Shown one piece after another: positions 2,747 to 3,938 of a stretch of DNA of 64,000 nucleotides. Where the stretch lies: contig NZ_CP133267.1 of the NCBI RefSeq assembly GCF_030915465.1, forward strand, positions 3,275,001 through 3,339,000, written 5' to 3'. The stretch's first letter is position 1, and each line of letters opens with the position of its first letter. The translations under genes and the position numbers were made by a program. Origin of the DNA: Neobacillus sp. PS3-34 (GTDB lineage: Bacteria > Bacillota > Bacilli > Bacillales > Cytobacillaceae). The notes under the pieces are model-generated. The model searched no databases. It was not told the DNA's origin and was given only the letters and a program-made list of their open reading frames with translations.

Positions 2747-2900
2747 AATACTTTTTATTGTCGCGGGGTGGAGCACGATCGAATAAGCTTCTTCGATTAA
2801 GCTACAGCGCAACGATTGAGCCACATTTTGAATATGCTTTCCGAAATCGGGGCGGCAAGATGAGGACAGCCCATATGTATAATAGCGCATGGGCAAATAA
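2747..2900 (+). repeat. Truncated 5' copy of tRNA-fMet with 125-nt insert
   Basis: A 29-nt exact direct repeat (2747-2775 and 2901-2929) covers 15 nt of leader plus the first 14 nt of tRNA-fMet. Between the copies lie 125 nt (2776-2900) that continue no known tRNA. The insert holds an inverted repeat ATCGAA/TTCGAT near its left end, the motif TTTGAATATGCT (2827-2838) and a stem GCCCAT/ATGGGC near its right end (about 2869-2894). The intact tRNA follows. The same layout recurs at three other tRNAs in the cluster. Confidence 0.85.
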
Positions 2901-2915
2901 AATACTTTTTATTGT

Positions 2916-2989
2916 CGCGGGGTGGAGCAGCCCGGTAGCTCGTCGGGCTCATAACCCGAAGGTCGCAGGTTCAAATCCTGCCCCCGCAA
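2916..2989 (+). tRNA. tRNA-fMet (CAT), initiator
   Basis: Intact initiator tRNA, anticodon CAT in CTCATAA, with the GGG/CCC anticodon-stem pairs typical of initiators and an unpaired C1. CCA is not encoded. The 5' end lies inside the right copy of the 29-nt direct repeat. Confidence 0.93.
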
Positions 2990-2992
2990 TTT

Positions 2993-3068
2993 GGTCCCGT
3001 GGTGTAGCGGTTAACATGCCTGCCTGTCACGCAGGAGATCGCCGGTTCGATCCCGGTCGGGACCGCCA
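2993..3068 (+). tRNA. tRNA-Asp (GTC)
   Basis: Complete cloverleaf, anticodon GTC, CCA encoded. It starts 3 nt after tRNA-fMet and has no truncated copy before it. Confidence 0.97.
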
Positions 3069-3081
3069 TTTTTATGTTAAG

Positions 3082-3213
3082 TGGCTCGGTAGCTCAGTCG
3101 GTAGAGCAGATTGATTGCTTCATTGATAGACTTCCGTTGCAATCTGCGAGAAAGATCGAGAGATCTTTTGAGCAAAGGACTAACAACATAAATTGTAGTG
3201 AATTACCTATAAA
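3082..3213 (+). repeat. Truncated 5' copy of tRNA-Phe with 105-nt insert
   Basis: A 27-nt exact direct repeat (3082-3108 and 3214-3240) spans the first 26 nt of tRNA-Phe plus one base. The 105-nt insert (3109-3213) starts with a GATTGC/GCAATC hairpin followed by CTGCGAG. Next comes a hairpin AAAGATC-GAGA-GATCTTT with a GNRA-type loop. Then GAGCAAAGGACT (3170-3181) repeats exactly the 12 nt of tRNA-Phe (3236-3247) that straddle the insert junction. Confidence 0.85.
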
Positions 3214-3214
3214 T

Positions 3215-3290
3215 GGCTCGGTAGCTCAGTCGGTAGAGCAAAGGACTGAAAATCCTTGTGTCGGCGGTTCGATTCCGTCCCGAGCCACCA
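3215..3290 (+). tRNA. tRNA-Phe (GAA)
   Basis: Intact cloverleaf, anticodon GAA, CCA encoded. The first 26 nt are duplicated 132 nt upstream. Confidence 0.96.
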
Positions 3291-3321
3291 TTTTTATTTC
3301 TATTTATTCCTCTAAAATTAT

Positions 3322-3398
3322 GGCGATTGTGGCGAAGTGGTTAACGCACCTGATTGTGGTTCAGGCATTCGTGGGTTCGATTCCCATCAGTCGCCCCA
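3322..3398 (+). tRNA. tRNA-His (GTG)
   Basis: Complete cloverleaf with the extra G at position -1 paired to the C discriminator; anticodon GTG; CCA encoded. No truncated copy precedes it. Confidence 0.96.
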
Positions 3399-3409
3399 TT
3401 TTTATATTC

Positions 3410-3564
3410 GCGGGTGTAGTTTACTGGTAAAACCTCAGCCACGAGCAAGACTACATTGGCCAGCTGCGAGTTGCCTCGACGCATATAGCAACTTTGAGTA
3501 TGCTAGTAGAGAAAGAGGCATGTAAGTACGTGAATTAAAATATTACTTCTTAATTAATAAATAT
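3410..3564 (+). repeat. Truncated 5' copy of tRNA-Gly(TCC) with 124-nt insert
   Basis: A 31-nt exact direct repeat (3410-3440 and 3565-3595) equals tRNA-Gly nt 1-31, ending at the anticodon-stem 5' strand. The 124-nt insert (3441-3564) begins ACGAGCAA. It holds GCTGCGAGTTG (3463-3473), a GTTGC/GCAAC hairpin and TTTGAGTATGCT (3493-3504), then a very AT-rich tail. ACGAGCAA and GCTGCGAGTTG recur in the tRNA-Asn insert; the TATGCT motif recurs in the fMet and Asn inserts. Confidence 0.85.
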
Positions 3565-3638
3565 GCGGGTGTAGTTTACTGGTAAAACCTCAGCCTTCCA
3601 AGCTGATGTAGTGGGTTCGATTCCCATCACCCGCTCCA
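3565..3638 (+). tRNA. tRNA-Gly (TCC)
   Basis: Intact cloverleaf, anticodon TCC in CTTCCAA, CCA encoded; 74 nt. Its first 31 nt are duplicated 155 nt upstream. Confidence 0.96.
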
Positions 3639-3642
3639 ACAT

Positions 3643-3715
3643 GGGCCTATAGCTCAGCTGGTTAGAGCGCACGCCTGATAAGCGTGAGGTCGATGGTTCG
3701 AGTCCATTTAGGCCA
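3643..3715 (+). tRNA. tRNA-Ile (GAT), acceptor 3' strand short by one C
   Basis: Anticodon GAT and normal arms, but the 3' acceptor strand reads TAGGCC where GGGCCTA needs TAGGCCC, leaving G1 unpaired. The simplest explanation is loss of one C from a CCC run, as in many proteins of this window. CCA is not encoded. Confidence 0.88.
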
Positions 3716-3721
3716 TTTTTT

Positions 3722-3859
3722 TTATTCCGCAGTAGCTCAGTGGTAGAGACGAGCAATGCATCATGAATATGCTGCGAGTTGTACACGCCGAATCACTCCT
3801 TAGATTACCTTCTGAGGCGTGGACACGGTAAGTAATAATGGTTTAGGGAAATACTTTAA
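3722..3859 (+). repeat. Truncated 5' copy of tRNA-Asn with 111-nt insert
   Basis: A 27-nt exact direct repeat (3722-3748 and 3860-3886) covers 4 nt of leader and tRNA-Asn nt 1-23. The 111-nt insert (3749-3859) begins ACGAGCAA directly after the repeat, as in the Gly(TCC) insert. It holds CATGAATATGCT (3762-3773) and GCTGCGAGTTG (3771-3781), then an inverted repeat CACGCC/GGCGTG that can form a long stem. Confidence 0.85.
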
Positions 3860-3863
3860 TTAT

Positions 3864-3938
3864 TCCGCAGTAGCTCAGTGGTAGAGCTATCGGCTGTTAA
3901 CCGATCGGTCGCAGGTTCGAGTCCTGCCTGCGGAGCCA
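3864..3938 (+). tRNA. tRNA-Asn (GTT)
   Basis: Intact cloverleaf, anticodon GTT, CCA encoded. Its first 23 nt are duplicated 138 nt upstream. Confidence 0.96.

Follow-up and report, generated by a model that had tools for sequence, protein, structure and literature searches.

Units bearing a copy of the tRNA 5' part precede selected tRNA genes in Bacillus-like bacteria

Certain tRNA genes in many Bacillus-like bacteria are preceded by a duplicate of their own first part, joined to a conserved two-hairpin segment. We conclude that these units are probably old, transcribed tRNA-leader elements rather than recent jumpers. Their anatomy, their distribution, the covariation in helix 2 of the hairpin cassette, their orientation and spacing, the likeness of units at the same tRNA in sister species, and the joint change of copy and tRNA are all directly supported. 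A fuller reading, to which we give a little less than an even chance, is that they may be vertically inherited, non-coding elements of long standing that act in cis as leaders of tRNA genes in Bacillaceae-type bacteria.

Results

Four tRNA genes in the window have an upstream unit

The window (the whole 64,000-nt stretch of Neobacillus sp. PS3-34 DNA that we analysed) starts inside a 23S rRNA gene, which is followed by 5S and then by 21 tRNA genes, as located by ARAGORN. Four of these 21 genes (fMet, Phe, Gly-TCC and Asn) have an upstream unit of constant order: a duplicate of the 5' part of that tRNA, a hairpin cassette of ~66–80 nt, a linker of ~40 nt, and then the intact gene. A search at the other 17 tRNA genes found no unit. 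The features are as follows:

2762..2775, + strand: upstream copy of tRNA-fMet nt 1–14 (repeat comparison; the identical stretch begins at 2747, in the leader)
2776..2854, + strand: type II hairpin cassette of fMet (model match 2771-2854, 37 bits)
2855-2869, + strand: 15-nt tail after the fMet cassette, resembling by eye the 3' end of a type I cassette
2870..2915, + strand: GCCC (resumed tRNA sequence) and linker before tRNA-fMet (sequence comparison)
2916..2990, + strand: intact tRNA-fMet (ARAGORN, with its start at 2915, and Rfam)
3083..3108, + strand: upstream copy of tRNA-Phe nt 1–26 (repeat comparison)
3109..3174, + strand: type III hairpin cassette of Phe, closing with a second GAGCA (cassette alignment)
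3175..3214, + strand: AAGGACT (resumed tRNA-Phe sequence) and linker (repeat comparison)
3215..3290, + strand: intact tRNA-Phe (ARAGORN)
3410..3440, + strand: upstream copy of tRNA-Gly(TCC) nt 1–31 (repeat comparison)
3441..3520, + strand: type I cassette of Gly(TCC) (60.8 bits with model R1, whose training set includes it)
3521..3564, + strand: linker before tRNA-Gly(TCC) (linker comparison)
3565..3638, + strand: intact tRNA-Gly(TCC) (ARAGORN)
3726..3748, + strand: upstream copy of tRNA-Asn nt 1–23 (repeat comparison; identical stretch from 3722)
3749..3825, + strand: type I cassette of Asn (78.8 bits with model R1, whose training set includes it)
3826..3863, + strand: linker with TTTAGG before tRNA-Asn (linker comparison)
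3864..3938, + strand: intact tRNA-Asn (ARAGORN)

The paired repeats are identical at 29/29 positions in fMet (2747-2775 and 2901-2929; insert of 125 nt), 31/31 in Gly-TCC (3410-3440 and 3565-3595; 124 nt) and 27/27 in Asn (3722-3748 and 3860-3886; 111 nt). In Phe (3078-3108 and 3210-3240) the figure is 30/31, with the single mismatch in the leader; here the insert is 101 nt over the 31-nt repeat, or 105 nt counting the exact 27 nt alone. The left copies break off at tRNA nt 14 (fMet, taking 2916 as the first base; ARAGORN gives 2915), 26 (Phe), 31 (Gly-TCC) and 23 (Asn). Past the cassette the tRNA sequence picks up again in register, as GCCC in fMet and AAGGACT in Phe; such a resumption is absent in Gly. 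The fMet cassette looks chimeric, type II being followed by the type I-like tail.

The first-pass annotation had described four tRNA genes with a duplicated 5' part and an insert, and 17 untouched ones, and on both counts our analysis agrees, with repeats of 27–31 nt ending at the nucleotides given above. The short blocks that it had seen in common between inserts are real, and form part of a cassette family found in many genomes. Because the units recur in this way, an assembly artefact is ruled out.

The family is widespread among relatives

Model R1 is a covariance model built from 27 type I cassettes, and genomes with other types alone may escape it. R1 matches 93 of the 150 genomes examined from the order (own genome included), in 58 of 84 genera; in a sample of the phylum it matches two of 299 genomes, namely our own and another of the same order. 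The first-pass annotation had proposed one family linked to tRNA 5' halves, to be pursued by a covariance-model search and a comparison with empty sites. The family is far wider than was envisaged; the R1 hits show constant placement before tRNAs, and short, unit-free spacers do exist in relatives. A DNA pattern search of named genomes returned 118 stretches; among the matches listed (80 of the 118), most belong to Neobacillus, Mesobacillus, Cytobacillus, Robertmurraya, Peribacillus, Litchfieldia, Lederbergia, Bacillus and the like, and a few are unrelated records. One query of viral contigs with the DNA pattern gave no match, nor did plasmids match a 161-base piece of one unit, nor phages one cassette.

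In the genome of Neobacillus sp. PS3-34 itself, 15 of the 83 tRNA genes examined (83 of 85 Rfam matches, two weak ones being left out) have a unit: fMet 3/3, Arg(TCT) 1/1, Phe 2/3, Gly(TCC) 2/3, Asn 2/4, Asp 2/4, Lys 2/5 and Thr(TGT) 1/4, with none at other isotypes. Since many tRNA genes of the same type lack a unit (as the Lys and Thr-TGT counts illustrate), the unit is dispensable. Across genomes, the isotypes with units include fMet, elongator Met, Phe, Asn, Lys, Asp, Thr and Gly and, rarely, Arg, Ala and Val. Relatives often have a short spacer where others carry a unit; occupancy figures from our loci are biased, most loci having been chosen because they matched. At four loci (L027, L153, L198 and L192) there are seemingly decayed units, in which the cassette end and the linker are kept and most of the tRNA copy is lost.

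Units keep one orientation and distance, and can form arrays

Among 244 distinct type I pattern matches in the loci studied, 234 have a tRNA on the same strand 60–700 nt downstream. Three others lie at cut locus ends, where they follow a tRNA 5' piece and score 54–82 bits with R1; the remaining seven, with at most 18 bits or no R1 score, are chance matches. Thus, these 244 matches include no genuine type I copy away from a tRNA. For spacing, similarity and G-U content we used the best 150 of 155 type I-like model matches, 144 after removal of duplicates: 110 end 29–56 nt before the tRNA, 30 lie farther away (many of them outer members of arrays), one is nearer, and three have no tRNA in the locus. 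The units therefore hold a single orientation and a tight spacing relative to the tRNA.

We also observed 29 tandem arrays of 2–4 units with a period of ~140 nt. Neighbouring array cassettes differ at 0 or 1 of 78 nt in 18 of 36 cases. Within the arrays, inner left copies are identical at 669/669 positions, linkers at 1211/1353 and cassettes at 2643/2808; the test demanded that the 12 nt of each copy nearest the cassette match exactly, so the copy identity is only partly free evidence. The outermost (leftmost) copies are more decayed, with 543/550 positions kept and 7/550 differing, and the degenerate left copies in example arrays are the outermost ones. One array, at L058, contains different cassette types.

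Cassette types and predicted structure

The units of relatives fall into three main cassette types and a remainder, and the inserts in the window belong to one family; types I and II have their second hairpin in common. In helix 2 of type I, compensatory change is seen at 7 of the 8 pairs; helix 1 does not vary, and hence says nothing on covariation. The first helix of type III, of 9 bp, takes in the GCA of the tRNA copy, and 3 of its 9 pairs are changed on both sides. We compared the whole type I structure, which was drawn manually from the tested sequences themselves, with 500 shuffles: none attains the observed paired cells, doubly changed cells or covariation score, and 10 attain the observed count of doubly changed pairs. 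As for further pair types, 487 of the 500 attain the observed count, which hence gives no support.

A covarying helix of the kind that characterizes structured cis-acting RNA is thus found in type I (helix 2) and type III (first helix). A cautionary point is how seldom G-U occurs in helix 2: 5 times in 482 paired cells, counted over 61 clean, mutually related type I rows, as against 540 in 6421 for the acceptor and T stems of tRNAs. Such rarity is unusual for an RNA helix and may point to pairing at the DNA level. The loop sequence of the cassette is conserved beyond the needs of a hairpin. Pairing of a cassette loop with the T-loop was considered and rejected: the two hairpins disagree, and the comparison is confounded by tRNA type.

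Some loci depart from the main types. L029 and L053 have composite units in which three or four hairpins follow one another, which suggests that cassettes may gain and lose hairpin modules. At L006, a further cassette type with first helix AATCG..CGATT lies upstream of Gly(GCC) and Phe, and the Lys unit there has a left copy that departs from its tRNA in the D-stem. A related loop motif of TTGAATA type occurs in the Met-Asp spacer of L098 (86 nt) and the Arg-Pro spacer of L122 (100 nt), the latter with an outer stem AACCAAC/GTTGGTT; a tRNA 5' copy was looked for in both spacers and was not found.

The left copy follows its own tRNA

The left copy agrees with its own tRNA at 13 or 14 of the 14 cassette-side nt in 248 of 258 units; at most 10 of the 258 look decayed in the left copy, three of these beside masked bases. 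The cassettes lie at points that span tRNA nt 12–31. The identity-profile, resumption and variant-sharing analyses used units whose left copy agrees with the tRNA at ≥12 of the 14 cassette-side nt. Among 248 such units, identity is ~0.9–1.0 through the tRNA part of the left copy; it falls at the mature tRNA 5' end where the cassette follows nt 23 to 31, and where the cassette follows nt 14 (fMet), above-background identity extends ~12 nt into the leader. This profile does not support a fixed-length target duplication or a bipartite guide, fMet excepted. Where a tRNA departs from its isotype consensus, the left copy carries that variant too in 47 of 49 cells (groups of at least four units), and changes confined to the left copy affect 60 of 4498 positions.

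The acceptor part of the left copy is no better kept than the rest, and of the 14 changes seen in that part, 12 disrupt its pairing to the 3' strand of the tRNA (one of the changes is a start-offset artefact); these two results weaken the simplest version of a folding decoy for the tRNA 5' half. Folding predictions of competition for the acceptor strand do not tell natural inserts from shuffled ones: the left copy is favoured in 93 of 108 natural cases and 91 of 108 shuffled ones, so that this test says nothing on whether the two 5' halves compete.

Beyond the cassette, fMet, Asn, Phe and Lys units take up the tRNA sequence again in register for a few nt; Gly units do not. By eye, linker features seem tied to tRNA type rather than cassette type, with GCAT in many fMet units and a TTTAGG-like box in many Phe and Asn units. 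Three further ideas about this region found little to sustain them. The linker as a decayed tRNA remainder gives a faint signal at most (fMet 11.2 vs 10.3, Thr 10.6 vs 9.5) and none elsewhere; a linker hairpin is weakly supported in fMet (mean z -1.3) and Lys (-0.8), and not at all in Phe or Asn; and alternative pairing of the resumed nucleotides in the anticodon stem, seen in the Phe alignment, follows from identity to the tRNA.

Within a genus, cassettes at the same tRNA are the most alike

Between sister species, type I-like cassettes that precede the same tRNA have a mean identity of 0.82 (28 pairs), as compared with 0.72 for different tRNAs of sister species (54 pairs) and 0.74 for different tRNAs in one genome (54 pairs). 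Across genera, the values are 0.68 for the same tRNA (787 pairs) and 0.66 for different tRNAs (3355 pairs). In these comparisons, the three matches without a tRNA were left out; genus assignments cover 36 genomes, all others being counted as different genera, and the kinship of genomes G002 and G003 comes from a separate comparison. Bearing in mind that the value for the same tRNA in sisters exceeds that within a genome, likeness follows the tRNA within a genus; because the within-genome value in turn exceeds that for the same tRNA across genera, some within-genome exchange or lineage drift is needed. Between different tRNAs of one genome, identity peaks at 0.89 among genuine matches (one same-genome row at 0.94, in G053, is an fMet unit counted as Asp owing to masked bases), and for 17 of 144 cassettes the nearest neighbour lies at a different tRNA of the same genome.

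Given this pattern, recent insertion does not explain why the left copy still equals its tRNA, and either selection or steady homogenisation is needed. We add an argument, rather than a test: were the copy of no use, units in which it has decayed, and which slippage can no longer remove, should build up; at most the 10 of 258 units mentioned above are of that sort.

The first-pass annotation had offered two ideas, small elements that enter tRNA 5' halves or a tRNA-derived regulatory RNA. For the former, the anatomy fits; recent mobility gains no support, in view of the greater likeness between sisters at the same tRNA than within a genome, the 0.89 ceiling, and the absence of viral, plasmid and phage hits in the queries described above. 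The latter, a putative role, gains from covariation, constant orientation and spacing, the maintained 5' copy and an apparently transcribed position.

Promoter-like and terminator-like sites

At the single-gene tRNA-Arg(TCT) locus (L095), a promoter-like TTGACT-17-TATAAT (11/12) precedes the left copy and a terminator-like hairpin follows the tRNA, giving the order promoter-like site, unit, tRNA, terminator-like site; promoter-like sites at this locus number 3 against a shuffle mean of 2.1, which is no excess. One other unit comes, by eye, after 5S-like sequence. A search of window positions 1400-4200 found no terminator-like site. The unit probably sits in the primary transcript, between the promoter and the mature tRNA 5' end.

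Discussion

We hypothesize that a unit made up of a copy of the first 12–31 nt of its own tRNA, the conserved cassette and the linker of ~40 nt would be transcribed ahead of the tRNA, as the promoter-like and terminator-like sites suggest, and would act in cis, as RNA, on the supply of that tRNA. The hairpins might provide a handle for a protein or a ribonuclease, and the 5' copy could take the place of the tRNA's 5' part while the molecule folds or is processed. It is also conceivable, although we are doubtful, that the mechanism depends on sequence identity between copy and tRNA as such: in the transcript of an individual tRNA gene, a duplicate first half fused to a dedicated hairpin sensor would form an isotype-specific self-reference switch. 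To our knowledge, this would be unlike any known tRNA control.

A tiny site-specific mobile element, the cassette of which enters a tRNA 5' half while an intact tRNA is regenerated downstream, is an unlikely explanation. It would account for the interrupted tRNA copies that resume in register (fMet, Asn, Phe and Lys), for insertion often after an AGC-like motif (by eye) at several isotypes and positions, for the clean short spacers in relatives, for the mixed cassette types in the L058 array and for the chimeric-looking fMet cassette of the window; the rarity of G-U would suit a DNA hairpin, and the within-genome likeness of different tRNAs (0.74; 17/144 nearest neighbours) and the ~12 nt of leader common to fMet copies fit as well. 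However, such an element left no genuine copy away from a tRNA among the 244 pattern matches and no near-identical cassettes at different tRNAs of one genome; it does not explain an age pattern in which sister-species likeness follows tRNA type, nor a linker motif that (by eye) tracks tRNA rather than cassette type. Viral contigs, plasmids and phages, with one query each, gave no match, and the candidate transposase considered below has other palindromes at its flanks, with no R1 match at 21 Y1 loci.

Rather improbable, in our judgement, is a selfish slippage repeat, in which hairpins stall replication, the two tRNA 5' copies allow expansion and contraction, and only those units go on amplifying in which the copies remain identical. 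The arrays with their nearly identical neighbours, the greater decay of outermost copies and a mostly Watson-Crick helix are what it predicts, but it has no ready account of loop sequence conserved past hairpin needs, of the tight distance to the tRNA, of the restriction to few isotypes, or of how new isotypes are reached. We think it very unlikely that the unit serves as a trans-acting small RNA, such that RNase P cleavage at the mature tRNA would free the leader and a tRNA 5' piece as a decoy or sponge: normal tRNA processing would indeed be expected to release a structured leader from the apparently transcribed position, yet the tRNA piece may be just 14 nt (fMet), too short for a D-arm, and tRNA specificity is hard to explain in trans.

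If, as in the cis-acting leader reading that we prefer, the units act on tRNA supply, they would represent gene-by-gene tRNA control in a large bacterial group that includes common soil genera. If they are instead mobile or selfish, they would be a very small element with the 5' half of tRNA genes as its niche. On either reading the family is widespread, compact and directly testable.

Comparison with known systems

A search with 4227 Rfam families (window positions 1-8000 and 10 loci) found only tRNA, 5S and LSU above the gathering cut-off, and window positions 2741-3941 gave no convincing match at lax E-values. A sub-threshold match to the Staphylococcus sRNA S774 at 2832-2935 (end of the fMet unit and start of the tRNA; 22.8 bits, E 3.8) is probably due to chance. 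Searches of the open PMC library yielded no earlier description of such tRNA-leader units. Because these searches were negative we take the family to be new, while recognizing that it may have been described elsewhere.

REP palindromes with their RAYT transposase are likewise small, non-coding hairpins in many copies. Our genome has a Y1 transposase gene (G000:C1:2779717-2780046; L265 1465-2025), identified by a Y1_Tnp match and presumably RAYT-like, which is flanked by near-perfect GTGACAGGCACCTTCCAG palindromes; these are a separate REP-like family of this genome. The flanks of the gene hold GTGACAGGCACC palindromes, not unit cassettes, and R1 has no match at 21 Y1-transposase loci of 10 genomes; on these grounds we reject a RAYT/REP origin. 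A Y1 transposase is present in 125 of 150 genomes of the order, and units occur in 6 of the 20 Y1-negative genomes listed.

MITE- or IS-type elements would have copies at unrelated sites, and there are none among the 244 type I pattern matches; as to a fixed duplication, identity drops at the tRNA boundary (cassette after nt 23–31), yet fMet copies include ~12 nt of leader. BOX repeats and Bacillaceae-1 RNA are, like our cassettes, modular hairpin repeats of Firmicutes, and Bacillaceae-1 RNA is sometimes near rRNA operons; neither is tied to a copy of a neighbouring tRNA.

T-box leader RNAs are, similarly, structured, tRNA-specific leaders of Firmicutes. However, T-boxes lie upstream of aminoacyl-tRNA synthetase and amino-acid genes and close with a terminator/antiterminator, whereas the units precede tRNA genes and carry a tRNA 5' copy; no T-box model match was found in window positions 1-8000 or the 10 loci, and, as noted, no terminator-like site between 1400 and 4200 of the window. 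Finally, integrative elements at tRNA sites (prophages, ICEs and islands) also have a duplicated tRNA part that flanks an insert and leaves one tRNA intact. Those islands act at tRNA 3' ends; our units, in contrast, duplicate 5' parts, are gene-free and so short (~140 nt) that there is no room for an integrase gene of their own, and can form head-to-tail arrays.
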